Below, piece by piece: positions 2,720 to 25,879 of a DNA stretch of 42,129 nucleotides (within the stretch, counting starts at the first letter, position 1; the number at the start of each line of letters is the position of its first letter). Under the pieces are notes generated by a model, which worked only from the letters and a program-made list of their open reading frames with translations, was not told the origin of the DNA and searched no databases. The position numbers were made by a program, and so were the translations under genes. Source of the DNA: a virus. The DNA lies in the IMG/VR virus record IMGVR_UViG_3300021467_000012, positions 1 to 42,129 of that record. The stretch is one strand, 5' to 3'.

Positions 2720-3151
2720 TTAGTCAGATTTAATAAACTTACCAATGAGTTTTTTGTCAGCAGAGGCACCTTTTCTGTAAATAGCCAAAAATACTCCTGT
2801 CGAAGCAGAATCCTCGTAATGAGTGTTATTAACCGTATCGTGATCAGTCAAGGCGTGTCTCTTCAAAAGGTGATAATCATCAGTATTAGCATTACAATCT
2901 GCTTCCCATAATTGTTCCTCAGTAATAGGAATAACCTTCACTTTGCCGTTTGAAGAGATTGAAGAAACAGCAACACCAAACAAGGTTTTAGTGGTAGAAC
3001 TGCTTGTTGCTCTTCTAACTGGAGCACTACCAGCACTACCATCTAAAGTCATATCAACGGCATCACCAATGTTGATGATTGCTGAACCATCAACCTCAAC
3101 AACGGTAGGTTCTACTACACCTCCACCACAACTAACTAACTTAAAAGCCAT
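2720..3151 (-). CDS. Capsid decoration / cement-like protein
   Basis: 143 aa, rich in Val, Ser, Thr and Gly, with a typical small beta-barrel pattern: an N-terminal GGGVVEPTVVEVDGS segment, then INIGDAVDM and KTLFGVAVSSI. This pattern recurs in phage head-stabilising proteins, and the gene sits between scaffold and major capsid as those do. The leader carries AGAGG about 12 bases before ATG. The exact family is not assigned. Confidence 0.7.
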   Translation of the reverse strand: MAFKLVSCGGGVVEPTVVEVDGSAIINIGDAVDMTLDGSAGSAPVRRATSSSTTKTLFGVAVSSISSNGKVKVIPITEEQLWEADCNANTDDYHLLKRHALTDHDTVNNTHYEDSASTGVFLAIYRKGASADKKLIGKFIKSD

Positions 3152-3159
3152 TTTTGATT

Positions 3160-4002
3160 TTAACCTCTACTTTGCTCTAACTCTTTGATTTCTTCTTCGC
3201 TCCAACCACCCCGACGCAATAAATTTTTTTCTTCTTCAGTGAATGGCCGGGAAGAAGAAGAGCGTTGAGCAACCCCTCCACTACCTTTACTGGCTATTTC
3301 AATTTTTCTTTTGGTAGTTTTCAAGTTGCTTCGCTCACTGACGGGAGATTGGATTGCTCGCCTTGCTCTTTCAAGTAATTTACCTATTTCTCGTGGGTTT
3401 TCTGGTTTTCTGTACCATTTCAATTCTTCTTGAAGAGCCATCCAATTTCTATCATCTGGGTCATTTTCTGGTTTAAATTCAGGATATCTTTCAAGAAATT
3501 TGTTTATCTCATCTTGCTCTATTTGTTCATAGAGTTGACGATTTAACTCCTCTCTTGAAACATATCCCTTTGCTTTGAGAATTCTCTCTATTAGGGCTAC
3601 ATCCTCAGGATGTAAGTCCTTTAAATCGTCAATCTCTTTCTGGGTAATTGGCTCTTCTTTTGGTTTTGTCTTTAACTCTCTCCTCGTTGTTCTTAACTCT
3701 CTAATTTCATTCAATAACCTTTCCCTTTCTTTTTTTAAACCTTCAATATCTTCTGGGCGAACTTTCTCCTCGCCAGTATCTTCACCAACTACTTCTTCTT
3801 CAGAGGTTTCTTCTTCAGGAATTTCCTCTTCAGAAGTTTCATCGGCAGGTTTTTCGCCAGTGGAAGATTCTGGCAGAGTTTCCTTCTCTTCTCCTGAAAC
3901 CTCCTCTTCCAAAGATTCAGTTTCAGGTTGTTTTACTTCCTCCTGATTTACTCCATCTTCAGAAGTAAAATCAGGTATATGTCCAATAACTTGTCTTGGC
4001 AT
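3160..4002 (-). CDS. Scaffold-like head assembly protein
   Basis: 280 aa. The first 90 residues are Glu/Ser/Thr-rich and strongly acidic, followed by a coiled coil (about residues 85-125, heavy in Glu, Arg and Leu) and a basic C-terminal tail with a run of serines. Acidic start, coiled coil and basic capsid-binding tail is the usual layout of phage scaffolds, and the position just upstream of the decoration and capsid genes agrees. It has a real SD (AAGGAG, about 9 bases before ATG). A CTCCT in the preceding hairpin could pair with that SD. Confidence 0.72.
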   Translation of the reverse strand: MPRQVIGHIPDFTSEDGVNQEEVKQPETESLEEEVSGEEKETLPESSTGEKPADETSEEEIPEEETSEEEVVGEDTGEEKVRPEDIEGLKKERERLLNEIRELRTTRRELKTKPKEEPITQKEIDDLKDLHPEDVALIERILKAKGYVSREELNRQLYEQIEQDEINKFLERYPEFKPENDPDDRNWMALQEELKWYRKPENPREIGKLLERARRAIQSPVSERSNLKTTKRKIEIASKGSGGVAQRSSSSRPFTEEEKNLLRRGGWSEEEIKELEQSRG

Positions 4003-4048
4003 AGTTTTACTCCTTTTTTAACCCAGCAGGAGACCTGGGATATGCCGA

Positions 4049-4279
4049 CTATACTTTGACTTTTCCAGTATCACTGGAAAGCCATCTCCTTTTTTTGTTT
4101 TTTCTTAATGGTAAATTTTTTCTTTTTGTCTTGGCAAAATCTTCTAACTGATTAGCAGACATTTTTGACTTGTAAATCTTTAAAGCACTTCCTTTCAAAG
4201 AACTAACAGGAATTTCACCTCGCCTGGCTGCTAAAGCCATTGCAAATGCTGATTGTTGAACCTTACTAACACTTGGCAT
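4049..4279 (-). CDS. DUF3008-like small basic protein
   Basis: 76 aa, basic. The order of segments (MPSVSKVQQSAFAMALAARR, then LKGSALKIYKSKMSANQLED, then AKTKRKNLP) matches my memory of the DUF3008-type small phage proteins of unknown function. The C-terminus RRWLSSDTGKVKV is nearly repeated at the end of the upstream neighbour (KKWISTDTGKMKA), which suggests a shared tail signal, perhaps for head incorporation. It lies in the head gene cluster. Confidence 0.7.
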   Translation of the reverse strand: MPSVSKVQQSAFAMALAARRGEIPVSSLKGSALKIYKSKMSANQLEDFAKTKRKNLPLRKNKKRRWLSSDTGKVKV

Positions 4280-4284
4280 AAGTT

Positions 4285-4602
4285 TTATGCTTTCATTTTG
4301 CCTGTATCAGTAGAAATCCATTTTTTCTTCTTTCTTAAACCATCTACCTCAACATATCCAAACTCTCTCTTTAATATCCTTTCTGCCGCAGTAGCAACTT
4401 GAGGATAATTATGTTGCCTTGCTCTTCCTAAAGCCGCTTTCAAAAGTTTTTTACTATACACCCACTTTCCATTCTTGCGTACTTTCACTGGAAATTTCTT
4501 TTCCTTTGGTAATAAAAACACGTGTGAAGGTTTTTTCTCTCTATCTCCGTATGCTACTGCTTTCTCTTTTTCACCAAATTTAAATGGATTTTTCTTCGTC
4601 AT
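4285..4602 (-). CDS. Small basic head-region protein with leaderless promoter
   Basis: 105 aa, basic, with Lys-rich ends and a central segment KKLLKAALGRARQHNYPQV that looks like a helical DNA- or protein-binding unit. I start it at the ATG at 4602, not at an in-frame ATG at 4680, because a TTGACA-17-TATACT promoter lies between them and its start site would fall within about 3 bases of this ATG. Its C-terminal WISTDTGKMKA nearly matches that of the next gene. Function unknown. Confidence 0.7.
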   Translation of the reverse strand: MTKKNPFKFGEKEKAVAYGDREKKPSHVFLLPKEKKFPVKVRKNGKWVYSKKLLKAALGRARQHNYPQVATAAERILKREFGYVEVDGLRKKKKWISTDTGKMKA

Positions 4603-4611
4603 ATTGCTTTT

Positions 4612-4640
4612 AGTATAAATCCAACTGATTTTTTTGTCAA
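4612..4640 (-). promoter_or_regulatory. Sigma70-type promoter, leaderless
   Basis: TTGACA at 4640-4635 and TATACT at 4617-4612, spaced by 17 bases, read on the minus strand. The predicted start falls about 3 bases before the ATG at 4602. This is an internal promoter that would boost scaffold, decoration and capsid expression from within the long leftward operon. Confidence 0.75.
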
Positions 4641-4657
4641 GCAAGTCGGACGCTTGA

Positions 4658-5140
4658 TTAGTGAGGAATGGCTGCATCACTCTTTATTTTTGCTTTTATT
4701 TCAGAATTAAAATTATTATACACTGTTTCTGCCCATTGCCTGATTCCATTTACTCCATCAGCAATTGAAATAACTTTGCTTCTCAAGTCAACTTTCTTAA
4801 CTTCCTTTTCTTTTTCACTCATATTTGAATACTCTTCTGGGACTACAATCGTAAAAAGAAACTCTGGCCTATCCTTAAAATACTCTACTTCTACACCAAA
4901 CTTTTTATTCAACACTGAATGAACTATCTCTACCCATTCAGGTGGCACAAACGACTTTGAACCTTCTACTTGTTCTGTTTTTTCTTCTTCTTTTTTAACT
5001 TCCTGCTTGGCTTCTTCTTTTTTAACTATTTCTTCTTTAACTAAACCAACCAACTCTTTAAACATTTCTTGAGTTTTCTTAATTTCCTGTCTCAATTCGT
5101 CAATTTCTTTTTTTGTATTATCTTTTTCTTTTTTCTTCAT
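4658..5140 (-). CDS. Coiled-coil hypothetical head-region protein
   Basis: 160 aa. Residues 1-65 are a Lys/Glu coiled coil; residues 70-150 form a separate domain with hydrophobic strands and helices (VPPEWVEIVHSVL, FLFTIVVPEEY). No known motif. Its start overlaps the stop of the upstream gene (ATGA type), so the pair is coupled. The position between portal and scaffold suggests a minor head or assembly factor. Confidence 0.65.
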   Translation of the reverse strand: MKKKEKDNTKKEIDELRQEIKKTQEMFKELVGLVKEEIVKKEEAKQEVKKEEEKTEQVEGSKSFVPPEWVEIVHSVLNKKFGVEVEYFKDRPEFLFTIVVPEEYSNMSEKEKEVKKVDLRSKVISIADGVNGIRQWAETVYNNFNSEIKAKIKSDAAIPH

Positions 5141-5568
5141 CGTGGTATTAAGAAATTTTTAAAATCACCATCTTTTTCGACCTTGAGAGATTTATTTGGT
5201 TTCTTTTTTAGTTCAGCAATTACTTCTTCTGAAACTGCTGGCAAAGTAATATCAACTGGCACTTTAATAATATCACCTGCTCTCATATCCTTTTTAACTT
5301 GAACCCACAAGGTTGTTCGGTAATGTCTAACTTTAGTTATCTTTTGTGGAATCATCTTTCTTTGCTCTTCTGGACGTCCAATAATAAACAGCAACCCCAG
5401 CAACTCCTCTTTCTTTACTAAAGCCGTTTCTCCGTTTGGAAAAGTGAATTTCAAAACCTTACACTCGTTAATAGATTCGTTCTTCTCGTCCCAATTAACT
5501 TCAACAAAAAAATCTTTTCTGGCTGCATTTAAATCTCTAAGACGAAATTTTTGATATTCCTCTAACAT
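5137..5568 (-). CDS. Hypothetical head-region protein
   Basis: 143 aa, mixed alpha/beta with a beta-rich middle (KVLKFTFPNGETALVKKEEL) and a proline-containing tail. No family recognised. It overlaps the small membrane protein upstream by 32 bases and the coiled-coil gene downstream by 4, which fits a tightly packed head operon. Confidence 0.6.
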   Translation of the reverse strand: MLEEYQKFRLRDLNAARKDFFVEVNWDEKNESINECKVLKFTFPNGETALVKKEELLGLLFIIGRPEEQRKMIPQKITKVRHYRTTLWVQVKKDMRAGDIIKVPVDITLPAVSEEVIAELKKKPNKSLKVEKDGDFKNFLIPR

Positions 5569-5653
5569 AATAAAGAAAAATAATTAAACCGACTATCATT
5601 AAGACAACCTTGACAATTTGAATAAAAATGTCAAATTTATCTTTCTTACTCAT
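5537..5653 (-). CDS. 38-aa single-pass membrane protein
   Basis: MSKKDKFDIF start, then a strongly hydrophobic stretch (IVKVVLMIVGLIIFLYYV, about residues 13-30) and a short basic tail: one membrane helix with a cytoplasmic-in charge pattern. The ATG overlaps the TGA of the upstream 72-aa gene, and the end overlaps the next gene by 32 bases, both typical of real coupled phage genes. It could be a holin-like or envelope-acting peptide; there is no direct evidence for either. Confidence 0.6.
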   Translation of the reverse strand: MSKKDKFDIFIQIVKVVLMIVGLIIFLYYVRGISKISS

Positions 5654-5868
5654 TGTTTAATTAACTCATTTAAAAACTCTTTAATTCCTTCAATTTTACC
5701 TTCGGCTATTAAAAAACATTTTAAAGTTTCCCACTGGCTATTTTTACTACCAAGCGTTGCTCTTACTTTTTCTATGTATAAATCTCTTGCCCTCTCTAAC
5801 GACTTCCACTGAGGACTTCTTACTAAATATCTAATTTGTTGTTTTTCTAAATCAGTTAAATCTTTCAT
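5650..5868 (-). CDS. Small helical protein next to portal
   Basis: 72 aa, helical and charged, with conserved-looking segments PQWKSLERARDLYIEK and WETLKCFLIAEGKI. Proteins of this size and makeup often follow portal genes in tailed phages, with no known role. It overlaps the portal stop by one base and the 38-aa membrane gene by four. Confidence 0.65.
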   Translation of the reverse strand: MKDLTDLEKQQIRYLVRSPQWKSLERARDLYIEKVRATLGSKNSQWETLKCFLIAEGKIEGIKEFLNELIKQ

Positions 5869-7937
5869 TATCTAAAAGGAATTGCTTCTTTAATTTGGCT
5901 GGCTAATTTTTGAATAACATTTCTTGGTTTACTTTCTAATTCGGTTGTTGGCACAACCTTTTCTGGTCTTAAAGGAGAAGTTTGAGGAGGTTGAACCGGT
6001 TTCACTAAAGGAGTTCTAATTGTTTCTTTGGTTAACCAGCCATCTGGCAACCAATCCTTTGGATCTTTATCATAAATCCTCAAAAGATTTTTAATTACCT
6101 TACCATAAGTTGTATTATTCAAATTAACTTCTCCACCTGCTTGCTGAATAAGAAGAATTTCCTGATTAACTCTTTCTAATAACGGCGATAAGAGATTTAT
6201 CATCTCTAAATCCATTGCTTTTTGTAATTCTTTGCTAACACTTAAAATTGACTGGGCTTTGACTTTAATTATTCCTTCCCATCTCAAACCACTTGGTTTA
6301 ATTCTGAAAAATCTCGTCTCTTCGCTTTCTATAAAGTTTCCTTGCTCATCTTTTTCTAAATTCATTGGAAATTCCCGATAAACCTTAGCATAAAAGTTTC
6401 CTTCCTCGTCATATTCGTATAACTCCGGATCTGATTGAATTTCTTGTAAATAAGCATTTATTCTCTCTCTATCTGTTATTCTGTAAACCTCAGGAATGGA
6501 ATATAACATCTGCATTAACGAAATCGTAATATAACCATCTTCATCTAAAGCATCAGCAATATTTTCTAATGGAGTTTTTAATCTTTTAAGGGCTGCCTCT
6601 TTTGCTTGGGCTATTTCAAAAGCAGTTTTTCCTGTAATCTCGCCTAATAAAGGAGCAGTCACTCCTGAAGTATTTTCTATATCTTTTTTAAACATTTCTA
6701 TTCCTGCCCACGCTTCTGCTCCTGGTCCTGGCACTTCAAGCCATTTAACATTACTCGGATCTAATACTTGTCTTCCTTTTCCCGGCTCAATTGCTATTTC
6801 TCCTCCTTCTGTTAACTCTGAAGTTCCTGTATAGAAAAACATCTTATAAATTGCTAAAGTCAACTGATCAATCGTCATATTTCTTATCCTATCAAGTAAT
6901 TTTTGGTCTTCTCTAATTGCCTCGTAAATCCCAATTCCATAAGGACAGGTAGCACTTCTTAAAGTCCAATAAGTTTGCCAGCAAGATAGCCTCTTTCTTC
7001 CTTCACTATCAGAAATAGGCAAGGGTTCAATAATAACTGGAATTCCATTAGCAATTACCATATACACATCTTTAATTCTATTCTCGTAAAAATAAACCTC
7101 TACTAAATCTTTTTCTTGGAATTTTCTCTTAATTCCTACATTTAGTTTATCTTCAACTTCTCCTCCTTTCTGAACATATTTTGCCAACCTGTAATTCCCA
7201 AATTCCTCTTGAAAAACATCCCAAGAATAAACCTTCCGCCACGCCCAATCTCTCATTGTTTCTGGTTGGTTTGGTAAAGTCATATCATCTATCCAAGCAT
7301 TCCAAGGATCAAGGTTTTCTCTAAAAACATCATTGTATTCCACAACCTCTTTTTCCTCGTAAATTGATTTTTCTGGCTCTTCTTCGTTATAATCCACCAA
7401 AACCTTAACCTTCCTTTTAACTAATTTAGGATAAGTTCTGGCAATTGCCCAGCCATATTTAGCCAAATTGTAGACAAATAATTTTAGTTGCTGTTTACTT
7501 TTAGCAATTTCCCAGTTTCTTTGATAAAGAGTTTTCATCAAAAGAGTAGTTTGTTCGTATTGTTTACTACCAGGAGTAAAAATACCTTCTGGGTTTCTAT
7601 CAATCAAAATTGAAAGGGCTGTTTGAATTTTAATATAAGGATTTGGCTGTGAAGCATCGGATTGCCAATCACCCGACTTTTCTAAAATCGTTGGCACTCC
7701 ACGCCATCCTTTCTCTTCATCTGTATAGATAACCTTTTTTCCTTTTGTTCTTAATTTGTGGGGAATATAATTCTTATCTGCTTCAGCCCACAGATTTTCT
7801 AAATTGAGACCATAAATATTTTTTCTAACTTCCTTTAAATCTTCAATTCTATTTTTAACATCTTGAAAAAGTTGGTATTTTTCTTTGCCTAAAAGTTTTT
7901 CTAAATTTGGTTTTGGTTTTGGTTTTATCTCATTCAT
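5868..7937 (-). CDS. Portal protein
   Basis: 689 aa, the size of podovirus-type portals. It has an N-terminal helical part, a wing-like middle with segments such as LDPWNAWIDDMTLPNQP, and a crown/stem region with GEITGKTAFEIAQAKEA (about residues 430-450), similar to portal stem helices. The tail is Pro-rich. The portal forms the 12-fold ring through which DNA enters and leaves. Here it is separated from large terminase by an eight-gene sugar cluster, an unusual break in a normally adjacent pair. Its start overlaps the last glycosyltransferase by 4 bases. Confidence 0.88.
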   Translation of the reverse strand: MNEIKPKPKPNLEKLLGKEKYQLFQDVKNRIEDLKEVRKNIYGLNLENLWAEADKNYIPHKLRTKGKKVIYTDEEKGWRGVPTILEKSGDWQSDASQPNPYIKIQTALSILIDRNPEGIFTPGSKQYEQTTLLMKTLYQRNWEIAKSKQQLKLFVYNLAKYGWAIARTYPKLVKRKVKVLVDYNEEEPEKSIYEEKEVVEYNDVFRENLDPWNAWIDDMTLPNQPETMRDWAWRKVYSWDVFQEEFGNYRLAKYVQKGGEVEDKLNVGIKRKFQEKDLVEVYFYENRIKDVYMVIANGIPVIIEPLPISDSEGRKRLSCWQTYWTLRSATCPYGIGIYEAIREDQKLLDRIRNMTIDQLTLAIYKMFFYTGTSELTEGGEIAIEPGKGRQVLDPSNVKWLEVPGPGAEAWAGIEMFKKDIENTSGVTAPLLGEITGKTAFEIAQAKEAALKRLKTPLENIADALDEDGYITISLMQMLYSIPEVYRITDRERINAYLQEIQSDPELYEYDEEGNFYAKVYREFPMNLEKDEQGNFIESEETRFFRIKPSGLRWEGIIKVKAQSILSVSKELQKAMDLEMINLLSPLLERVNQEILLIQQAGGEVNLNNTTYGKVIKNLLRIYDKDPKDWLPDGWLTKETIRTPLVKPVQPPQTSPLRPEKVVPTTELESKPRNVIQKLASQIKEAIPFR

Positions 7938-8842
7938 AAGCCAAATTCTTTTAATTTGTCAAGAGGCACTTTTTTGTCTCTTCGTCTAAAAGGATGGTTC
8001 CAAGTAGTTGAGATATGTTTTCCGTGTAAAACGCAACAATAGTAATAATCTGGCAATTGATAACAATCAAAAATCTTAGGAATATCCTCGTGGCTCTTAA
8101 AACCATCCATATAATCCAAATACTTTTGAGCATCCAAGAAAACATCCTTTGGAAAAATAATCGTGTGAAAAGGCGGATTAGTATTCGGATGCCACTCTAC
8201 CAATTCACCAGTCAAATGATTATAAGCAAGTCCTTTCTGAAAAACCAACGCCTTTCCTTTTTCTGGGAATTGTGAAATAATCGTTCTTATTGCCTCTCTA
8301 TGTAGCATATCATCGCTATCAATCCTTGTCAAGTAAATCCAATCGGCTTCTTGAAAAACTTTTTTCAATCCTTCGTTTCTTAAAAACTCAGCAAAAGTTC
8401 TTTCTAATCTTTCTTTTAAAGTTTTGTTTTTGTGATAAAAAATTTCTTTTAAATCACCTAAACAAACTGACTTTTCTCTGTACCAACCCCTAACCACCCT
8501 TGCCACATTCATTAAAGTTTGCTTTAATCCACCGCCAAATTTATCGTCCCAATACATCAAACCATTAAAAGTAAGAACAACTGGATAATCTTTTAATCCC
8601 TCAAAATACTTTATTAAATCAAAAACTAAAGGGTTTTTCGCTTCCTCTGGTCTAAAAGATAGCCAATGAATAAAACCTCTATGACTTTGGTTCAATAAAC
8701 TTTTCAAAGTATATTTCTTAAAAATCTCAATTCTATACTTAAACCAATCATCACCCCGATAACCTTTCTTTAGACCAACGCCTGTAAATGGTGTATAAAT
8801 TATTGATAAAATTTTAGGTTTTGTATTAATTTCTCTTTCCAT
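7934..8842 (-). CDS. GT-A type glycosyltransferase (rhamnosyltransferase-like)
   Basis: 302 aa. RIDSDDML (residues 173-180) is a DxD-type nucleotide-sugar/metal site. The N-terminal region (IIYTPFTGVG, then FKKYTLKSLLNQ) and the HPF segment near the end resemble putative rhamnosyltransferases that add a sugar to a growing surface glycan in the cytoplasm. The donor and acceptor cannot be read from sequence. Last gene of the cluster, overlapping the portal by 4 bases and the upstream transferase by 43. Confidence 0.75.
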   Translation of the reverse strand: MEREINTKPKILSIIYTPFTGVGLKKGYRGDDWFKYRIEIFKKYTLKSLLNQSHRGFIHWLSFRPEEAKNPLVFDLIKYFEGLKDYPVVLTFNGLMYWDDKFGGGLKQTLMNVARVVRGWYREKSVCLGDLKEIFYHKNKTLKERLERTFAEFLRNEGLKKVFQEADWIYLTRIDSDDMLHREAIRTIISQFPEKGKALVFQKGLAYNHLTGELVEWHPNTNPPFHTIIFPKDVFLDAQKYLDYMDGFKSHEDIPKIFDCYQLPDYYYCCVLHGKHISTTWNHPFRRRDKKVPLDKLKEFGL

Positions 8843-9633
8843 ATTTTTCTAAAAGGATTAGGTTTAATTTGCTTTTTTAAAAGTAATAATTTATCTTTCA
8901 AATCTCTAATATCCTCAAAACTCCAAAGATGCGGATATTTAATTTTTGAAATTGGATATTGCCCTAATAAAATTGACTTTGCAATTACTTCTGAAAAACC
9001 ATCAAAACTATTCAATCTTAAACCACATTGATAATTCTTTATTTCCTCGTCTAATTGTTTTTCTGGTATTTTGCCGTGAAAAACCACATTTTTAGGAAAA
9101 TTCAACGCCTCATAACCTTCAATACCATAAATATGAAAAGTATATTCTGGCAAAAACCTACTCAAAATACTTATTTCTACAATTCCGTATTCTCTCTCTC
9201 TATCTCTATGCATACACAACCAAATATGCGGATTTTCCGAATGTCTATAAGTTTCTGGCAAGTCAATATCTCCAAAGAAAATTGGATTAACTTTTGCTTT
9301 AATTCCGTATTTTTCAAGTTTTTCTTGCTCTGCCTCGTTTTCACAAAAATTCTCTGCCTTTTCAATTCTTGTTATTTTTGCATACAATCTTGTTCTCCAC
9401 TTGCCAAGATTTAAAATATCGCTTCCACACCAAAACACTTTTTTTTCTCCTTGACACCATAAAAACTTTAAATAGTCAAGGATATGATACATTCCAAAAA
9501 ATACTACATTCTTTCGGGGATTATAATTCCATTCTGGCAATCCTGTGGACTTTTCTATTTTTTCTTTAAAATTTCTTATTGATGACGAGCAACAAAAATA
9601 TAACCTAACCTCGCCCAATTTTCGGTTGACCAT
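8800..9633 (-). CDS. GT-B type glycosyltransferase
   Basis: 277 aa. Two Rossmann-like halves: an N-terminal part (VVFFGMYHILDYL, then VFWCGSDILNL) and a C-terminal part with IWLCMHRDRE, YTFHIYGIEG, NVVFHGKIPE and the late GLRLNSFDGFSEVIAKSIL, the usual place of the donor-binding Glu in GT4-like enzymes. Slightly short for the family. Probably transfers a sugar onto the glycan built by this cluster. Overlaps both neighbours. Confidence 0.72.
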   Translation of the reverse strand: MVNRKLGEVRLYFCCSSSIRNFKEKIEKSTGLPEWNYNPRKNVVFFGMYHILDYLKFLWCQGEKKVFWCGSDILNLGKWRTRLYAKITRIEKAENFCENEAEQEKLEKYGIKAKVNPIFFGDIDLPETYRHSENPHIWLCMHRDREREYGIVEISILSRFLPEYTFHIYGIEGYEALNFPKNVVFHGKIPEKQLDEEIKNYQCGLRLNSFDGFSEVIAKSILLGQYPISKIKYPHLWSFEDIRDLKDKLLLLKKQIKPNPFRKIWKEKLIQNLKFYQ

Positions 9634-10205
9634 AAATCTTTTGGTATTTTTAATTCTTTAACATTTTGCCACCCTAACTTTTTCAAAATCTTTCTATAAT
9701 TCCTTGCCCAGTGATGATGCATCACTTTTCCTAAAAAACTTTCACTTTTCCACTCTACCAAAACAATTCCTTTTTTTGCTAAATAAGAAATGTTTTCCAT
9801 TGCTCTTAAAATCCTTTCTGGAGGAATATACATCAACACTGCATCTACTAAAACAATATCAAATTGCCTTTTAATTAAACTATTTTCAATATTATCAATA
9901 TAAATATCAACTTTTGGCAATCTCTGCTTTGCTATCTTTAATGCCTCTATATTAACATCTGAACCAGCCAACTCAACTTTGGGAAATTTGTCTTGAATTA
10001 ATTTCAAGTTTGGTCCAACATTACAGCCAACCTCTAATAAACTTTTAAAAGGATAAAAACTTTCTAATGCTTTCAAAATAAGTTTCCGATGAGGATGATT
10101 GACTGACTGCCAATATCCTTCTAACCAATCCTTTTCTCCTATTCGCCAATCCAATTTTTTATCCTCTCTTTTTCTGTTTATCCAATAACTTACATCTTGG
10201 GGCAT
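9576..10205 (-). CDS. Class I SAM-dependent methyltransferase
   Basis: 209 aa. LLEVGCNVGPNL (residues 56-67) is the SAM-binding motif I; ELAGSDVNIEAL supplies the acidic residue of motif II, and FDIVLVDAVLMYIP is motif IV. The cluster context suggests O- or N-methylation of a sugar. The leader carries both AAGGTCGG (33 bases upstream) and AAGGAAT. It overlaps the upstream dehydratase by 16 bases and the next transferase by 58. Confidence 0.8.
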   Translation of the reverse strand: MPQDVSYWINRKREDKKLDWRIGEKDWLEGYWQSVNHPHRKLILKALESFYPFKSLLEVGCNVGPNLKLIQDKFPKVELAGSDVNIEALKIAKQRLPKVDIYIDNIENSLIKRQFDIVLVDAVLMYIPPERILRAMENISYLAKKGIVLVEWKSESFLGKVMHHHWARNYRKILKKLGWQNVKELKIPKDLWSTENWARLGYIFVARHQ

Positions 10206-11059
10206 ATAAAGTAAATTCCTTGCTTTTTAACCGACCTTTTTTTCTCTTCTTTTGTCATTAATTCTTCTCTTAATTTCTCACCCTTATTTGGTTTAGTAAA
10301 TTTAATAGGCAAAACCTTGCCAGACAAAGCAATCATCAGTTTAGCCAAATCAGTAATATAAATCTCCTTTAATTCTGGCACGCAAATCTGTCCATTCTTT
10401 GCTAAAAGAGTTGCTTTTAATATAAAATCTATTGCTTCGCCCATACTAATAAAATACCTTCTCATCTTTTTGTGAGTAACCGTTAATGGTTCATCTCTTT
10501 CAATTTGTTTTTTAAAAATTGGCACAACACTCCCTCTACTTGCCAAAACATTTCCAAATCTAACAATTATAAATTCTGTCTTACTTGATTTACTTGCCTC
10601 TAAACACAATTTTTCTCCCTCTTTCTTTGTTTTTCCATAATAATTTTTTGGATTTACTGCTTTATCGGTTGAAATAAAAACAAATTTTTTAACTTTTATT
10701 TTTAAAGAAGATTTAACTAAGTTTTCTGTTCCTTTTACATTTGTTGTATAAAATTCATCAGACCATTTTTCGCCCCAAATAACGTGTTTATAAGCGGCAC
10801 AATGAAAAACAATATCTGGTTTATATATCTCAAAAATCCTTTCAATTTTTATTTCGTCTCTTATATCGGCTAAAATCAATTCTGCTTTGGTTTCTTCCCA
10901 TAAATCAAACAAACCTGATTCATTAATATCTAAAATAAAAACCTTTTTAGGTTTAAGTTTAACAATTTGTTTAGTCAAATTGTTTCCTATTGATCCTGCC
11001 GCTCCAGTTATCAACACTTTTTTATTTTTGAAAAAATTCTCTAACTTTTTCAATGACAT
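10190..11059 (-). CDS. CapD/PseB-like nucleotide-sugar 4,6-dehydratase (SDR)
   Basis: 289 aa. The NAD-binding GAAGSIG (19-25), STDKAVNP (130-137), catalytic Tyr141/Lys145 in YYGKTK, VRFGNVLASRGSVVP, MRRYFISMGEA and GEKLREEL are marks of the FlaA1/PseB/CapD short-chain dehydrogenases. These convert UDP-GlcNAc to a 4-keto-6-deoxy sugar, which an aminotransferase like the upstream gene can then aminate. The protein is the cytoplasmic soluble form, without the membrane domain of long CapD proteins. Overlaps the aminotransferase by 38 bases. Confidence 0.85.
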   Translation of the reverse strand: MSLKKLENFFKNKKVLITGAAGSIGNNLTKQIVKLKPKKVFILDINESGLFDLWEETKAELILADIRDEIKIERIFEIYKPDIVFHCAAYKHVIWGEKWSDEFYTTNVKGTENLVKSSLKIKVKKFVFISTDKAVNPKNYYGKTKKEGEKLCLEASKSSKTEFIIVRFGNVLASRGSVVPIFKKQIERDEPLTVTHKKMRRYFISMGEAIDFILKATLLAKNGQICVPELKEIYITDLAKLMIALSGKVLPIKFTKPNKGEKLREELMTKEEKKRSVKKQGIYFICPKM

Positions 11060-12014
11060 AATCTACTTGTTCGTTTGTTAACTCTGGATAAAGAGGTAAA
11101 GATAAAACCCATTCAGTTATACACGGCTTATCAAAAGCATAACCTTTTATTTGGGTTTCAATACCATTGTCTTCAAGAAAAGATTGTAATCTCCTATTAT
11201 TTGCTGTTCTAATAACATAATTCTGCCAATACTCACTTTCTGGTAATGTTATCAATCCCGCTTCTTCTATTTCCTTTAATCCTTCGTGATATCTCAAAGC
11301 AATTTCCTTTCTTCTACTTAAATAAAAAGGCAAATACTTTAATTTAATATTCAAAACTGCTGCTTGAATATTATCTAACCGACTATTAATAAAACCTGCA
11401 TCTCTTAACCATTTCATTCTCTTAAATAAAAACTCGTCATTTGTCACTACTGCCCCGCCATCTCCATAACAACCTAAAATCTTTGCTGGATAAAAACTAT
11501 AAAAAGCACAATTTCCTTCTAATTTTTTAGGAATAGATTGGCAACTATCTTCAACAATATAAAGCCCGTTTCTAACTGCCATATTTTCTATCTTTTCCAT
11601 ATCACAAATCTTCCCATTTAAATGAACGGGGATAATAACTTTTGACATTGTAGTTATTTTCCTTTCAACCTCTTTCTCATCAATAAGAAAATCTTTTTTA
11701 GGGTTTACTAAAACTGGTTTTAAAAAAGCCCTTCTAATTACCCAAATAATACCTTCAAAAGTATGCCAGGTGGTAATTACTTCTCTGCCAACCTCTATTC
11801 CCAAACCTGCCAAAGAAAGATAACAAGCATCTGTGCCACTATTTACTGCCAAACAATATTTTGCCCCTACTAATTTAGCAAAGTTTTCTTCAAATCTTTT
11901 TACTTCATCTCTTAAAATTAAATCTCCGTTCCTTAAACACTTCTTAATTGCCCTATCTATTTCTTTTTCTATTTTTTTGTATTGTAAGCCGTAATTTACA
12001 AATGGAACTTTCAT
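11022..12014 (-). CDS. DegT/DnrJ/EryC1/StrS aminotransferase
   Basis: 330 aa, slightly shorter than the usual 360-390. NSGTDACYLSL (58-68) binds PLP phosphate, VEDSCQS (154-160) holds the Asp that contacts the pyridine, and Lys178 in FYPAKILGCYGDGGAVV is the Schiff-base lysine. The family aminates keto-sugars. Its likely substrate is the 4-keto sugar from the downstream dehydratase, or a ketose made by the transketolase pair. The leader has AAGGTCGG 27 bases upstream. Overlaps the upstream gene by 4 bases. Confidence 0.88.
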   Translation of the reverse strand: MKVPFVNYGLQYKKIEKEIDRAIKKCLRNGDLILRDEVKRFEENFAKLVGAKYCLAVNSGTDACYLSLAGLGIEVGREVITTWHTFEGIIWVIRRAFLKPVLVNPKKDFLIDEKEVERKITTMSKVIIPVHLNGKICDMEKIENMAVRNGLYIVEDSCQSIPKKLEGNCAFYSFYPAKILGCYGDGGAVVTNDEFLFKRMKWLRDAGFINSRLDNIQAAVLNIKLKYLPFYLSRRKEIALRYHEGLKEIEEAGLITLPESEYWQNYVIRTANNRRLQSFLEDNGIETQIKGYAFDKPCITEWVLSLPLYPELTNEQVDYVIEKVREFFQK

Positions 12015-12499
12015 AATCGTATATATGCCGGACCCGACCTTTTGTATTCTTTTAAAATAATTTTTTCAACTTCTTTTAAAGAATTAGGAGCGTAAACTTT
12101 CATATTTGGCAAAGTTCCCATTAAAACCAAATCTAAATTTCCTTCAACGTTATGTGTAAACCCTAAAAATTTGTAATATTGCCTTCCCCCTACTCCAATT
12201 ATTTTTACATTCAAACCTTTTTTTTGATAGCAAATATCATTTCTAACAAACTCATAATTTCTCATTGTCACAAATGGTATAATCCCGTATATCCAAGGTT
12301 TTTTGCCACTTAAAGCCAAACCAGTAGCAATTCCTGTTATAAGTTGCTCTGTAATTCCACAATTAAAATATTGCTTTGGAAATTTTTCGGCAAATTCTTC
12401 AAACAAACTAAATCCTGTATCATCGTTTAAAAGAATGATATCCTTATCTTTTTCTGCTAATTTAATTAGCGTTTTGACAAATATATCTCTTGGCCTCAT
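12011..12499 (-). CDS. Transketolase C-terminal subunit, pyrimidine domain only
   Basis: 162 aa. CGITEQ (47-52) carries the Glu (E51) that activates thiamine diphosphate, followed by GIATGLALSGKKPWIYG and LPNMKVYAP, all typical of the transketolase Pyr domain. Split C-subunits are normally about 300 aa with a further C-terminal domain; this one stops at AYIRL, the end of the Pyr domain, so that last domain is missing. It should pair with the upstream N-subunit. Overlaps both neighbours. Confidence 0.83.
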   Translation of the reverse strand: MRPRDIFVKTLIKLAEKDKDIILLNDDTGFSLFEEFAEKFPKQYFNCGITEQLITGIATGLALSGKKPWIYGIIPFVTMRNYEFVRNDICYQKKGLNVKIIGVGGRQYYKFLGFTHNVEGNLDLVLMGTLPNMKVYAPNSLKEVEKIILKEYKRSGPAYIRL

Positions 12500-13229
12500 T
12501 GTAAAGTTCTTTATTTAAATTAAAATAATGCCACTCAACCCTATTTTCAGCAAAAGGAATTCCTTTTCCTTTAATTGTATTAGCAATAATAACTTTGGGT
12601 CGTTTATGAACCGTTTTTTGCCCAAAAGCACTTATTAAATCATTGAAATTATGCCCATTAACTGGTACTACCCACCAATTAAAACTTTTCCATTTTCTTG
12701 CTAATGGTTCTAATTGTAAAACTTTATTCGTCTCTCCAAAAGCCTGGAGTTGATTGTAATCAATAATTAAAGTCAAGTTATTCAATTTGTAATGAGCGGC
12801 AAACAAAGCCGCCTCCCAAGTTGTTCCACAATTACATTCTCCATCACTTATTAAGCAATAAACCTTTCTATCTCTATCAGCCAAAGCCATTCCGACGGCT
12901 ACTCCTATTCCGTGCCCAGCACTACCAGTTGATAAAACTACTCCTGGCACTTTTTCACTTACCAGTCCTGGGTATTTTTCAGTATAATAGTTTTTTAATA
13001 AATCCTTTTTATTGATAATTCCTTTTTCGGCCAAAACTGCATATAATGCTGCCGCTCCCCAACCTTTTGAGAGAATAAAAATATCCTTTGGCTTCATTAT
13101 TTTAAAATAAAGAGTAACTAAAATCTCAACTTCACTCATATTTGAACCTAAATGGCAAGATTGAGCCCGATAAAGCATCTCAATTACCATTAATCTTATT
13201 TTTTTAGCAATTTCAGTAATGCTTTGCAT
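12462..13229 (-). CDS. Transketolase N-terminal subunit (ThDP-binding)
   Basis: 255 aa from the ATG at 13229; an in-frame TTG at 13253 is also possible but deepens the overlap. STGSAGHGIGVAVG (100-113) and SDGECNCGTTWEAA (128-141) through Asn159 form the thiamine-diphosphate/metal site (GDG-N motif, first Gly replaced by Ser). With the next gene it makes a split transketolase that moves two-carbon units between sugar phosphates. Such split pairs occur beside DegT aminotransferases in surface-sugar and aminosugar clusters. Overlaps the sugar transferase by 34 bases. Confidence 0.85.
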   Translation of the reverse strand: MQSITEIAKKIRLMVIEMLYRAQSCHLGSNMSEVEILVTLYFKIMKPKDIFILSKGWGAAALYAVLAEKGIINKKDLLKNYYTEKYPGLVSEKVPGVVLSTGSAGHGIGVAVGMALADRDRKVYCLISDGECNCGTTWEAALFAAHYKLNNLTLIIDYNQLQAFGETNKVLQLEPLARKWKSFNWWVVPVNGHNFNDLISAFGQKTVHKRPKVIIANTIKGKGIPFAENRVEWHYFNLNKELYNEAKRYICQNAN

Positions 13230-13618
13230 AAAATTTTTAAATTTAAGAGCCAATTTCTTTTTTGAATGTAGAGAATTTGCAATTTTGTTTTTAATCTGCT
13301 TATAGCCAAATAATTTTCTCTCATATCATTTTCTCTTATAAAATGCAAGGTTGCTAAATCTAATAATCCTGGCTTAACTGATAATATTATTTTTCTTTCT
13401 TCTTCGGGAATTAATAAAATATCCTTTAATTCTTCTGGTCTTGGTCCAAAAAAAGCCATCTCACCTTTTAAAATATTTATTACTTGAGGAATTTCATCTA
13501 TTTTCCATCGCCTTAAAAACCTGCCAATCCTTGTTATCTTTCCATTTTCCATTGTTTTAAATTTGTAAATCCAAAAAATCTTTCCGTATTGCCCTACTCT
13601 TAATTGTTTAAAAATCAT
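13196..13618 (-). CDS. Polyprenyl-phosphate sugar phosphotransferase, N-terminally truncated
   Basis: 140 aa. FKQLRVGQYGKIFWIYKFKT, TRIGRFLRRWKIDEIPQ (catalytic Asp41-Glu42) and FFGPRP (57-61) are the hallmarks of WbaP/PglC-type bacterial sugar transferases, which load the first sugar phosphate onto undecaprenyl phosphate. The usual N-terminal re-entrant membrane helix and following segment are absent. The reading frame begins at the exact point where large terminase stops (ATGA overlap), so the gene looks cut at its 5' end when the cluster was joined. It may be inactive or only loosely membrane-bound. Confidence 0.82.
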   Translation of the reverse strand: MIFKQLRVGQYGKIFWIYKFKTMENGKITRIGRFLRRWKIDEIPQVINILKGEMAFFGPRPEELKDILLIPEEERKIILSVKPGLLDLATLHFIRENDMRENYLAISRLKTKLQILYIQKRNWLLNLKILCKALLKLLKK

Positions 13619-15045
13619 AATTCTTCTTGGGGATTGTAATAATCACCTTGATATAATTTATCAAGTTTTTCAGCTAAACTTTCTCTTTTCATTGCCAGTA
13701 ATTTTCTTTCCACTTCAGTTAATGGTTTCGGTCCTTTTCTTTCTCTTAAAGTTTGAAGGAAATATCTTAAAGCATCTGCACAATGGTCTTCACCTCTTGT
13801 ATCTAAATCTTCCGGCTTTTTTTCATCGTGAATTAACATTGGAATCGTTCTAATTGTATTTAAGCAAGTTTTAAAAAACATTATTTTTGGCAATGTACTT
13901 TCATCCCAGTAAAGATACTGATGAACCGTATTCCAACCATCTATCCTTCTATTACTTGCCGGAATAAAGGCAATCCCATTTCTAGCAAATACTTCTGCAA
14001 TTGTTTCGCCGTGTCCCATTTTTGCAAAAATACTTGGATCAGCCACTGAATAAACATAACTTTCACCCTCACTTAATCTATTTATTTCTCTGGCAATCTG
14101 ATCTGCATTCCAACCTTGGACATATAATTCTCGGTAGCAATAAACCCTGCCGTTATAATCTAAAGTAAACCATAAACAACACGCTGGATTTTCTCTGCCG
14201 TGATCATAACCTCTAAATCTTGGCCAACTCACCGGAATTGGAAATGGCTCGCAAACATGTTTTTCTACTCTCCATTCATTAAAGAATTGCCCTTCTAATA
14301 TATCCCAATCTCCTTCTCGCCATGCCTTTCCTAAAGAACCCGGCAAACTTTCAAGATATTCAATATATTCTTTGTTTAAAAATGGATTATCTTTATAAGT
14401 TGCTGGAATAAAAAAGCAATTTTTATCTTCTTTTAAAATGAATTTTCTTTTCACCCATTGCATTCCTATTCCGCCCGGATTAAAACTACAATAAATTCTT
14501 GGTTTCCAATTTTCTTTTGAGGTTCTTAAACTTCCTTTTAATTGCAAAACTTTTTCCTCTGTTAACTGGGTTAATTCCTCTAAAGCCATCAAGTCATATT
14601 CAATCCCTATGTATTTATCAATATCTCTACTATCTTTAAAACCACCTAATACTATTTTGCTTCCATTTGGAAATTGTAAAATGTTCTTGTTTTTATTGTA
14701 TTTATAATCAATCTTACCTGCTAAAAGTTTATTTATTACATCCTCAAAACTTTCTGCGGCTGCTGCTCCAATTTGCCTCAAAAACAAACTTTTTAGTCCT
14801 TTTATTCGTTGAGAGTCATCTAAAGCAATCTGGGCTAAAATAGAATAAGTTTTGCCTGGTCCTCTTGCTCCTCCTAATCCAATTTCAGTTATTGGATTAT
14901 TTCTGTCATCAATTTGCCTGGCTAAAGAATGGAATTCTAATTGCCAAGGAAAAGGAATATACGCAGCGCTTAAAAAGTTTTCAAGTTGGTCTTTTTTAAT
15001 TCCTTTTTCCTTTGCCAACTTGATAAACTTTTCAATCTCCTCCAT
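13615..15045 (-). CDS. terL: Terminase large subunit
   Basis: 476 aa, full length. Walker A GLGGARGPGKT (57-66), Walker B YDLMALEE (150-157), and an RNase H-like nuclease with acidic residues in FRGYDHG (D281), YSVADPS (D336) and EDHCADALRYF (D424). This ATP-driven motor and nuclease packages DNA into the procapsid. No cohesive-end signature is visible; the circular assembly fits headful packaging. Overlaps the small subunit by 14 bases and the sugar transferase by 4. Confidence 0.95.
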   Translation of the reverse strand: MEEIEKFIKLAKEKGIKKDQLENFLSAAYIPFPWQLEFHSLARQIDDRNNPITEIGLGGARGPGKTYSILAQIALDDSQRIKGLKSLFLRQIGAAAAESFEDVINKLLAGKIDYKYNKNKNILQFPNGSKIVLGGFKDSRDIDKYIGIEYDLMALEELTQLTEEKVLQLKGSLRTSKENWKPRIYCSFNPGGIGMQWVKRKFILKEDKNCFFIPATYKDNPFLNKEYIEYLESLPGSLGKAWREGDWDILEGQFFNEWRVEKHVCEPFPIPVSWPRFRGYDHGRENPACCLWFTLDYNGRVYCYRELYVQGWNADQIAREINRLSEGESYVYSVADPSIFAKMGHGETIAEVFARNGIAFIPASNRRIDGWNTVHQYLYWDESTLPKIMFFKTCLNTIRTIPMLIHDEKKPEDLDTRGEDHCADALRYFLQTLRERKGPKPLTEVERKLLAMKRESLAEKLDKLYQGDYYNPQEEL

Positions 15046-15439
15046 CTTTGTATATTTTTTTAATTTTCTCTTTTATTTCTCTGTCTAATTTTATTTTTGT
15101 AGTAGTTTCAGTTTCGGTTTTTTCAATATAGCCGTGCCTTGATAATAAAAGCCTTGTAATACAAGCATTAAATTTGTTTAAAAGTCCTCCGGTAATTAAC
15201 AACTTGGATTGATGAGTATTTAAAAGTTCAATTGTGTCTGAAACTTCTTTATATTTCTTTGCTAAATCATATAAATAAGGACGATGAATTCCTAAAACTG
15301 TTGCTAAACCTTCCACGGTTGGCACAATATCCCCATATTTTTTAGGGTTTTCAATATAATCAAGAGCAATTTTTGTTGCCCTCTCTATCTCTTTTTTAGT
15401 ATATTTTTGAGCGTATTTATTACCTTTTGGAGCAGGCAT
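15032..15439 (-). CDS. terS: Terminase small subunit
   Basis: 135 aa. Starts MPAPKGNKYAQKYTKKEIE, then a helix-turn-helix-like region (TVEGLATVLGIHRPYLYDLA, about 46-65) and a helical oligomerisation part, the usual layout of small terminases, which recognise the packaging site and regulate TerL. It starts 5 bases after the remnant 3' end of a methyltransferase gene, which would once have been its upstream neighbour. No SD; A/T leader. Confidence 0.85.
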   Translation of the reverse strand: MPAPKGNKYAQKYTKKEIERATKIALDYIENPKKYGDIVPTVEGLATVLGIHRPYLYDLAKKYKEVSDTIELLNTHQSKLLITGGLLNKFNACITRLLLSRHGYIEKTETETTTKIKLDREIKEKIKKIYKDGGD

Positions 15440-15444
15440 ATTTT

Positions 15445-15543
15445 TTAATTTATTTTTTTAGCCTTTTTTCCACTAAACTTTTCCCAACGATTTAGTATGA
15501 CCTCAGCATATAAAGGCTCAATTTCAATTGCCCGGCACTTTCT
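15445..15543 (-). pseudogene. C-terminal remnant of a DNA methyltransferase
   Basis: The last 32 codons, RKCRAIEIEPLYAEVILNRW then EKFSGKKAKKIN and stop, match the end of ParB-type phage DNA methyltransferases (motif GRK-C-x-x-I-E-I-x-P-x-Y, then a RWE-x-F-x-GK tail). An in-frame TAA sits directly before it, so it cannot be made as part of a longer protein. The matching N-terminus lies at 16329-16427, on the other side of the HNH gene. The central methylase body is gone. Confidence 0.65.
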
Positions 15544-16297
15544 TTAAATAATTTTCTGTTTTTTTATGACAACCTAAACAAAGTGTGCGTCCATTATTTA
15601 TATCCCAGAGTTTCTCACAATTTAATGCTTCCTCTAATGTTTTAATTTTATACTCTCTTATTATACCAGCAAAGGATTTAGGAAAATGGTCTACTTCTAA
15701 TCTTACACCTCTTTTCCCGCAAATCTGGCAAGTATAATTATCTCTTTCAAAAACCTTCTGACGCCATATTTTATATTCTATACTTTCTCTTATTTTTTTC
15801 ACTAATTTAGTTTTCCCTCCTCGCCATAAATAACACTTTTCTCCTGATATTTCTGGTCTCTTTTTATTTCTCCAATACCCCACCTTCCCTTTATGATTTT
15901 CAATCATCATTGCTTTATATTCTGGATTTTTCCATAATTCCTTCTGCCTCTCTTTTGCTATTTTACTAAATTTTTCTTTTTCTTTTTTTGATTTATTTAA
16001 CCATCTCCTTTTATTACTTGTTCCAATTTTCTTTTTTGTCTCCTCTGTCAGTTTCCGACCCTTCATTCCCCTTATTCTTTTCTCTCTAATTTCAGGATTC
16101 TGCCAACTTTTTTTAGCAAGTTTTCTCCGTTTTTCTTTAAAATCTTGAGACATTTTTTTCCCTTTATTCCACGGAACTCTACCCTTTAGAGCCTCGCTAA
16201 TATGCTTTTTGTGTTCATCAGTAATAATTTGCCTTGCTCTGGCAAGTTTTATTTTTCTTATTCGCTCTTCTGGATTTTTAAAAACTCCTCGTGGCAT
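15524..16297 (-). CDS. HNH homing-type endonuclease with NUMOD3 repeats
   Basis: 257 aa. Residues 1-115 carry repeats of the NUMOD3 type (EALKGRVPWNKGKK, GMKGRKLTEETKKKIG) that bind DNA; residues 175-250 hold the HNH site: YTCQICGKR, LEVDHFPKSF, NNGRTLCLGCHKK. These free-standing nucleases cut DNA and spread themselves. The gene has its own near-perfect promoter and would be leaderless. It lies between the two ends of a methyltransferase gene, so it has replaced that gene's body. Confidence 0.88.
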   Translation of the reverse strand: MPRGVFKNPEERIRKIKLARARQIITDEHKKHISEALKGRVPWNKGKKMSQDFKEKRRKLAKKSWQNPEIREKRIRGMKGRKLTEETKKKIGTSNKRRWLNKSKKEKEKFSKIAKERQKELWKNPEYKAMMIENHKGKVGYWRNKKRPEISGEKCYLWRGGKTKLVKKIRESIEYKIWRQKVFERDNYTCQICGKRGVRLEVDHFPKSFAGIIREYKIKTLEEALNCEKLWDINNGRTLCLGCHKKTENYLKKVPGN

Positions 16298-16303
16298 TCT
16301 TTT

Positions 16304-16332
16304 ATTATAATGCCACTTGCTTTAATTGTCAA
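16304..16332 (-). promoter_or_regulatory. Consensus sigma70 promoter, leaderless, for HNH gene
   Basis: TTGACA (16332-16327), 17 bases, TATAAT (16309-16304), both perfect. Six bases separate the -10 box from the ATG at 16297, so transcription should start at or next to the start codon. The -35 box overlaps the stop codon of the ParB remnant. Terminase lies downstream in the same direction. Confidence 0.85.
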
Positions 16333-16427
16333 CCTTCTTTTAAATTGTTTACCTCTTTTTCGGTCGCCTTTCGTGGATTATATTCACTTGGCTTTAATTT
16401 ATCAATTTTTACTTTAAAAATTTTCAT
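16329..16427 (-). pseudogene. N-terminal remnant of a ParB/DNA-methyltransferase gene
   Basis: 32 codons. The first residues (VKIDKLKPSEYNPRKATEKE) are the start of the ParB-like nuclease domain found at the N-terminus of many phage DNA methyltransferases (I-x-x-L-K-P-x-x-x-N-P-R-x). The frame then stops at TGA, just where the HNH promoter begins. It still has a good promoter and an SD (AAAGGAGAG), so a short peptide may be made. Its partner is the C-terminal remnant beyond the HNH gene. Confidence 0.65.
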
Positions 16428-16437
16428 CTCTCCTTTA

Positions 16438-16466
16438 ATTATACCATATTTTCACTTATTTTTCAA
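16438..16466 (-). promoter_or_regulatory. Sigma70-type promoter for the ParB remnant / terminase operon
   Basis: TTGAAA (16466-16461), 17 bases, TATAAT (16443-16438) on the minus strand, followed by AAAGGAGAG and the ATG at 16427. This was probably the original promoter for the methyltransferase-terminase operon before the HNH gene arrived with its own. Confidence 0.75.
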
Positions 16467-25270: not shown

Positions 25271-25879
25271 TTACTCTAAACCTCCTCCTAAAATTTTTTT
25301 AGCAAAACTATACAAAGTTTGTGAGCCAATCCCAATGCCAATCACACCTCCAATTGTGGCAGAAATCATACCAACAACCCTGCCTTTGCCATTTAGAATA
25401 GGACTGCCAGAAGTGCCGGGCGGAATTGGGGCTGATACTAAAAGAATCTCATCGTCTTGGTCTGCATAGATGATATTTGACTTTGTAATGCCAATTCTCA
25501 TTCTCTTTTTAATCAAAACGGGAGTGGGAATATACACTTGCTCGAATAACTTGTAGTCATCAAATACTTCCTCAATTTCCCTTTTCTCATTTTCTAAACC
25601 ATTAACATACAATAAAGCCATATCCTTGCCGTAGGTAGTTTTATAGTTTGATTTCTCATAAATTGCCCCGTCTTTTGTTTTCCGATAGAGTTCCTTACCA
25701 ATAATATAGCCAATTGTCCTTGCGTCATACTTTTTTTCCTTGCCGATTGCAAGGATTTCTCTGCTACCGTTAGTGCAATGTCTGCAAGTAAAGATAATCG
25801 CCCCAGTTAATAGAAAGCCAAGACACCAGGTGCCACCGTCCTTGTCATTGACAAGGTAAAGAAAGTCCGTTAACTGCAT
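25271..25879 (-). CDS. Trypsin-like serine protease
   Basis: 202 aa. The chymotrypsin-fold triad is complete: His34 in FTCRHCTNG, Asp86 in GKDMALLYV, Ser157 in PPGTSGSPILNG, followed by the usual VVGMISATIGG strand. No signal peptide, so it should act in the cytoplasm. A perfect SD (AAGGAGGTGA) points to good expression. Cytoplasmic trypsin-like proteases are rare in phages of this size. Next to two nucleases it could be a host-takeover or defence-type effector, or a processing protease (inference). Confidence 0.85.
   Translation of the reverse strand: MQLTDFLYLVNDKDGGTWCLGFLLTGAIIFTCRHCTNGSREILAIGKEKKYDARTIGYIIGKELYRKTKDGAIYEKSNYKTTYGKDMALLYVNGLENEKREIEEVFDDYKLFEQVYIPTPVLIKKRMRIGITKSNIIYADQDDEILLVSAPIPPGTSGSPILNGKGRVVGMISATIGGVIGIGIGSQTLYSFAKKILGGGLE

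Follow-up and report, generated by a model that had tools for sequence, protein, structure and literature searches.

Our subject is a cassette of sugar-related genes lying among the packaging and head genes of the window, a linear virus record of 42,129 bases (IMG/VR IMGVR_UViG_3300021467_000012). Eight intact open reading frames (ORFs) fill positions 7934–13618 on the minus strand, between the large terminase (TerL) gene and the portal gene, as a first-pass annotation of this DNA had proposed. Read from TerL towards the portal, they encode a phosphoglycosyl transferase (PGT), the two subunits of a transketolase-like enzyme (TktN and TktC), a DegT-family aminotransferase, a dehydratase, a methyltransferase (MT) and two glycosyltransferases (GTb and GTa). 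The tight packing described in that annotation is borne out, with each ORF overlapping its successor and both outer junctions (TerL/PGT and GTa/portal) being ATGA overlaps, which couple the cassette translationally to TerL and portal. None of the eight genes carries a frameshift, and the base composition of the cassette (GC ∼0.31) is the same as that of the rest of the phage. The cassette is likely co-transcribed with the packaging and head genes, and we infer that it is expressed late. The enzyme functions named earlier for the cluster agree with Pfam matches for six genes, with a predicted model for GTb, and with a motif and gene context for GTa (Table 1).

Table 1. Coordinates of the cassette genes, their flanking genes and the upstream promoter-like site in the window.
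Feature	Position	Strand	Basis
PGT, phosphoglycosyl transferase catalytic domain, 140 aa	13196..13618	-	PF02397, E 1e-32
TktN, thiamine diphosphate (ThDP)-binding subunit of two-subunit transketolase-like enzyme	12462..13253	-	PF00456, E 1e-27
TktC, pyrimidine-binding (Pyr) domain subunit, 162 aa	12011..12499	-	PF02779, E 4e-18
DegT-family pyridoxal phosphate (PLP) aminotransferase, 330 aa	11022..12014	-	PF01041, E 3e-74
PseB/CapD-type UDP-GlcNAc 4,6-dehydratase	10190..11059	-	PF02719, E 1e-88
S-adenosylmethionine (SAM)-dependent MT	9576..10205	-	PF08242, E 7e-9
GTb, GT-B-fold glycosyltransferase	8800..9633	-	predicted model and PDB fold matches
GTa, probable GT-A-type glycosyltransferase	7934..8842	-	RIDSDD motif, weak PF11316
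TerL, large terminase, upstream flank	13615..15045	-	PF04466, E 7e-19
Portal protein, downstream flank	5868..7937	-	PF16510, E 5e-7; PHROG 156
Exact sigma-70-consensus promoter-like site, TTGACA-17-TATAAT	16304..16332	-	consensus match only

Enzymes of the cassette

The proposal of an amino-sugar pathway is supported by the presence of the dehydratase and the DegT aminotransferase, whose successive steps from UDP-GlcNAc are established chemistry for these families. The same order, a dehydratase followed by a DegT aminotransferase, is found in the PseB–PseC and PglF–PglE pathways, whereas PseH, PseG, PseI and PseF of the pseudaminic acid pathway were not seen in the window cluster. The best NCBIfam models for the dehydratase and DegT are PseB and PseC, although neither equivalog cut-off was reached (193 versus 408 bits and 154 versus 424 bits, respectively), and that for the MT is TIGR03587 (pseudaminic acid-associated methylase), also below its cut-off. 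DegT retains the PLP lysine (K178) and has a shortened substrate loop. The dehydratase active site reads SYK in the window, with the Tyr of the C5-inverting group; this Tyr is shared with the relative L003, while the other 17 aligned rows have Met. In a published motif table, Tyr is the residue of C5-inverting PseB and Met that of PglF/WbpM (PMC8987622). Because of this difference the sugar product may vary between phages, motif and product being not strictly linked.

GTa and GTb have no significant Pfam match. The predicted GTb model has a mean pLDDT of 88.5, and almost all of the 50 PDB matches listed for it are GT-B-type glycosyltransferases (best E ∼1e-9), including SenB, BshA, SdgB, TarM and GtfA. 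The best of these, SenB and BshA, act on small molecules; SdgB and GtfA are protein glycosyltransferases. GTa was assigned from its SDD motif (RIDSDD), a sub-threshold match to the rhamnosyltransferase family PF11316 and its conserved company, its own model being weak (pLDDT 68) and giving no fold match below 0.001.

The transketolase called split in the first-pass annotation does consist of two subunits with the ThDP residues in place, but of the three domains of a transketolase it has the pyrophosphate-binding (PP) and Pyr domains and lacks the C-terminal one. The ThDP/Mg ligands D137 and N167 (TktN, whose start is perhaps the ATG at 13229) and the catalytic Glu E51 (TktC) are present in the window and retained in nearly all of the phage enzymes. 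In none of the 25 phage contigs of this type does TktC extend beyond the Pyr domain (in two it is shorter still, and in two the contig start cuts it), whereas a full-length C subunit of at least 307 aa is present in 19 of 20 cellular homologues. The full donor-site His set of transketolase was not found in the window TktN, in which Trp65 occupies the position that we take to correspond to His69 of yeast transketolase. At this position the phage enzymes carry Trp (11), Ser (8) or His (1, in L124), a replacement in 19 of 20, and all 18 cellular TktN sequences carry His. Compared with the bacterial genomes examined, the missing C-terminal domain and this replacement look phage-specific. The nearest cellular TktN/TktC pairs examined (TktC 48–50% identical) lie in sugar clusters, one of them (L114) alongside CDP-hexose enzymes and an apparent flippase. 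The split transketolases of such bacterial clusters, from one small-genome phylum, share the two-subunit arrangement with the phage pair; the latter differs in having no C-terminal domain and, in all but one of 20 contigs, no His69 equivalent. In a different kind of phage (L035:4865-9198), a portal gene and apparent sugar kinase and nucleotidyltransferase genes adjoin a split transketolase in which the His is retained and the C subunit is longer. Elsewhere in the cassette the catalytic residues are intact, the His69 equivalent being the sole exception, so the degraded active sites that would have spoken against the cluster were not found.

The predicted sugar phosphotransferase is likewise confirmed in part, since the PF02397 catalytic domain is present and the membrane part of the family is absent. 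The PGT match covers positions 36–178 of 179, and the Asp-Glu dyad and GPRP motif of the monotopic PGTs (PglC/WbaP) are retained. What differs is the N-terminal re-entrant membrane helix, which is missing from the window PGT (maximum hydropathy 1.2, versus 2.9 in the PGT of L076). This helix is thought to bind polyprenyl phosphate and has been called essential (PMC6133551). The window PGT begins at the same point as those of L003, L032, L091 and others, and a helix-less PGT stands beside a Tkt pair in the window, L003, L032, L091, L118, L119, L122, L124 and L125. Other well-covered viral PGTs that were found keep the helix, and all 66 cellular PGTs among the matches listed for 59 genomes have open frames of at least 191 aa; against these bacterial genomes the loss looks phage-specific.

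Overall, of the 11 contigs in which a PGT lies beside such a ThDP-type enzyme, 10 have the helix-less form, nine with Tkt and one, L126, with an E1-type pair. The PGT and TktN genes overlap in eight contigs (the window, L003, L032, L091, L118, L119, L122 and L124), and in L126 (5962-8653) the PGT overlaps an E1-alpha-type ThDP gene (PF00676), behind which lies a beta subunit with a Pyr domain only; the PGT–ThDP pairing might itself be what matters. Given these overlaps and the pairing with another ThDP family, it is conceivable, if speculative, that PGT and trimmed ThDP enzyme work as a single soluble machine, transferring sugar-1-phosphate straight onto a protein or other soluble acceptor and not a membrane lipid, in which case glycans would be initiated in the cytoplasm on the phage's own particle.

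Relatives, genomic position and origin

In L003 all eight genes recur between TerL and portal with their order unchanged, at 46–83% identity. The ratio of non-synonymous to synonymous substitution (dN/dS) against L003 is 0.12–0.49 for the eight cassette genes, 0.10 for portal and 0.31 for TerL, values that are approximate at a dS of ∼0.8–1.5; GTa gives 0.10 against L025, whose contig begins within GTb and runs on through GTa to portal. All eight genes are under purifying selection, and the shared content, order and place in L003 together with these ratios exclude chance. Degradation of the cassette was considered and rejected, as the ORFs are intact and under selection.

The cluster had been described as an insertion between TerL and portal. 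The junction is indeed empty in L021 and L007, whose portals are 59–61% identical to that of the window and where TerL is joined directly to portal (by a TAATG overlap in L021), but a newly inserted host cluster is not what the relatives suggest. On the contig of L021, a partial kit (locus L029) lies away from the junction and comprises DegT, an MT, GTb, a second MT-like gene and GTa; in L075 the kit is upstream of TerL. Other, distant relatives have at the same junction GroEL (L011:10655-12187, PF00118, E 8e-65), GroES (L005:1416-1691, PF00166, E 4e-7) or GroES-like genes, probable in L002 (2566-2850, just under the cut-off) and recognised by eye in L008 (2305-2607). Since relatives carry the kit, GroEL/GroES or nothing there, the gene content marks the terminase–portal junction as a recurrent slot for assembly-related accessory genes.

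An early viral scan from two close TktN sequences found L003 only, and profile scans built on alignments of GTa, TktC, GTb and PGT found dozens of viral contigs. A strong GTa or GTb defined 43 loci, some of which are near-copies or share a contig. The two genes occur together in 38 of these, and in 37 the GTa/GTb core lies within 6 kb of TerL, portal or the major capsid protein (MCP) gene, always on the same strand; L029 and L091 are among the exceptions. The TerLs of the 43 loci form four groups, and no BLAST match linking one group to another exceeds 80 bits. A long form consists of PGT, the Tkt pair, DegT and dehydratase, often with a WbuX amidotransferase (above its NCBIfam cut-off), a glutamine amidotransferase (GATase) and an acetyltransferase, and continues with GTb, MT and GTa ahead of TerL/portal. 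An MCP form runs MCP, another glycosyltransferase, GTb, GTa, a further glycosyltransferase and connector; its GTb is monophyletic (support 100/99) and always within ∼2 kb after MCP. One operon (L088) has sugar-making genes before TerL and glycosyltransferases after MCP. The GTb tree places the window with L003, L075 and L029, with weak support (71/18). WbuX and glutamine amidotransferase, a pair known for acetamidino sugars, occur together in L032, L087, L091, L093-L096, L102 and L153.

No match to GTa or GTb was found in 50,697 phage records. TktN matches in cultured phages (33 records) were not counted, being mostly unannotated fragments or host-like contigs. Among the genomes of 84,980 species, GTa matched one phage-like contig only, and none of 379 other genomes from the phylum of the metagenome-assembled genome (MAG) holding that contig; more distant cellular homologues are possible, and GTb was not scanned alone in cellular genomes. 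Clear cellular relatives exist for the sugar-making enzymes only, in a different gene order. Recent host capture of GTa and GTb is therefore rejected for want of a cellular GTa match in the scans run, GTb not having been scanned alone, and recent capture of the sugar-making genes is unsupported because their cellular order differs. The description of the cluster as host-like is thus not supported: GTa has no cellular counterpart in these scans, GTb tracks phage lineage and cellular order differs. An ancient shared module without host counterpart had been named as a refutation; the module does appear old and shared, and not a new capture. As GTb follows phage lineage, we favour an old phage module that has changed place over a recent capture. 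A kit-bearing contig binned in one MAG (L028), a small genome from a phylum whose members span 0.5–2 Mb, is suggestive of a Patescibacteria host, binning being weak evidence.

Proposed glycan and its probable acceptor

The reading we lean towards, with modest confidence, is that the phage uses its own cytoplasmic pathway to make an amino sugar and glycosylate a virion protein. In this pathway, the PseB-type dehydratase would convert UDP-GlcNAc to UDP-4-keto-6-deoxy-HexNAc, DegT would aminate the keto sugar to a 4-amino-4,6-dideoxy sugar, TktN and TktC (as a minimal ThDP enzyme) and the MT would tailor it, and GTb and GTa would transfer sugars to a capsid, portal or tail protein. The resulting glycan-coated particle might gain in attachment, shielding or stability. 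Reactions, step order, acceptor and benefit are all inferred, and the roles given to the ThDP pair, PGT and MT are guesses.

None of the eight cassette proteins has a transmembrane segment, and in 20 contigs scanned neither a Wzx flippase (PF01943, found in 13 of 14 controls) nor GtrA (PF04138, 7 of 14 controls) was found, so the pathway looks soluble. The repeated occurrence of the glycosyltransferases next to capsid, portal and terminase genes makes a virion protein the simplest choice of acceptor, and virion glycosylation fits best of the three roles first proposed for the cluster. Several observations weigh against it. The 20 contigs are fragments, which limits every absence and makes the missing flippase weak evidence. 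The partial kit of L029 lies among 7-deazaguanine genes and not in the head operon, the capsid gene of L091 is on the opposite strand from the kit, and the PGT of L076, in a Tkt setting, keeps its membrane helix. The best fold match of GTb, SenB, is a small-molecule transferase, which makes a non-protein acceptor possible, and GTa is a probable glycosyltransferase at low confidence.

Alternatively, the cassette could change a host surface polysaccharide and so block competing phages or aid release. The enzymes resemble those of O-antigen and capsule clusters, the nearest cellular Tkt pairs examined sit in sugar clusters (that of L114 with an apparent flippase), L076 retains a membrane PGT, and the lipopolysaccharide (LPS) clusters of cyanophages are a precedent (PMC3037559). 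The absence of PF01943 and PF04138 from the 20 contigs and of membrane segments from the eight proteins, together with the loss of the lipid-carrier helix from most PGTs of the kit (PMC6133551), weakens this earlier proposal; placement among virion genes also fits poorly with both early exclusion and a lasting change. We consider it unlikely. The same absences separate the cassette from gtrABC serotype conversion, which is defined by a GtrA-type flippase, and from the Wzx/Wzy polysaccharide pathway.

Attachment of the sugars to phage DNA, conferring resistance to restriction, is a known activity of phage glycosyltransferases (Pyle et al. 2024, as cited in PMC12619734), with YerA41 as an example of phage DNA glycosylation (PMC9023294), and in L029 the partial kit is flanked by QueC and GTP cyclohydrolase I, which belong to a 7-deazaguanine pathway. 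However, thymidylate synthase (PF00303) was found in none of the 20 contigs, QueC is genuine only in the contig of L029 (other weak QueC matches coincide with WbuX-type genes), and 20 further window proteins scanned include no base-modifying enzyme, leaving this explanation quite unlikely for the cassette. The L029 region itself (2940-15122) has a profile match to QueC, genes for a radical SAM QueE-like protein and for GTP cyclohydrolase I, and a QueD recognised by eye; this set, which surrounds the glycan genes, suggests 7-deazaguanine modification of DNA.

A glycan on another phage or host molecule (a small thiol or selenol, tRNA or a host cytoplasmic protein), with no structural role, would accord with the small-molecule substrates of SenB and BshA; it does not account for why, in unrelated phages, the genes are repeatedly packed next to those for capsid, portal and terminase, and we hold it to be improbable. 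That the cassette is passenger or filler DNA, a doubt also raised for the cyanophage LPS clusters (PMC3037559), is scarcely credible given purifying selection in all eight genes, the lack of frameshifts, seamless overlaps and recurrence in several lineages.

Comparison with known systems and neighbouring genes

Virion glycosylation by the phage itself has a parallel in mycobacteriophages, whose capsid and tail tube carry glycans for which phage glycosyltransferases are thought responsible (Freeman et al. 2023, as cited in PMC12619734); here the glycan is predicted from genes, the phage also carries a nucleotide-sugar pathway, and its GTa and GTb are those unmatched among phage records. Megavirinae fibril clusters comprise 6–33 genes for rare bacterial-type amino sugars and glycosyltransferases serving the particle surface (PMC10117803). 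They resemble the cassette in combining virus-encoded amino-sugar genes with glycosyltransferases, but belong to eukaryotic giant viruses, whereas the cassette lies inside a packaging/head operon of ∼40-kb phage contigs, its ThDP enzyme is minimal and its PGT lacks the helix. The LPS clusters of cyanophages P-SSM2, S-SM2 and S-SSM7, of unproven function, lie near hli03/phoH and tRNAs (PMC3037559), while the window kit recurs by terminase, portal or capsid genes. These three phenomena are known; the most surprising parts of the cassette are the helix-less PGT and the trimmed ThDP pair, and no description of it was found in open-access papers, the coverage excluding subscription papers and preprints.

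Whether phage sugar clusters are working genes or filler has been a question since the cyanophage LPS clusters, and a compact, recurrent, particle-linked cassette makes it testable. If virion glycosylation is correct, small phages, like giant viruses, can make the glycans of their own surface. PGTs without the helix run counter to the view that this fold needs its membrane helix (PMC6133551), and the substrate of the trimmed ThDP enzyme is a new puzzle.

Upstream of the terminase genes, the promoter-like site may be where the operon containing the cassette begins. It belongs to a set of such sites (16304-16466) beside a gene for a NUMOD3-containing, HNH-type putative homing endonuclease (15524-16297), just upstream of the terminase genes. 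Further away, the window encodes a 441-aa protein that is ATP-grasp-like by eye, without a significant Pfam or PHROG match (28498-29823), and a trypsin-like protease (25271-25879, PF13365).

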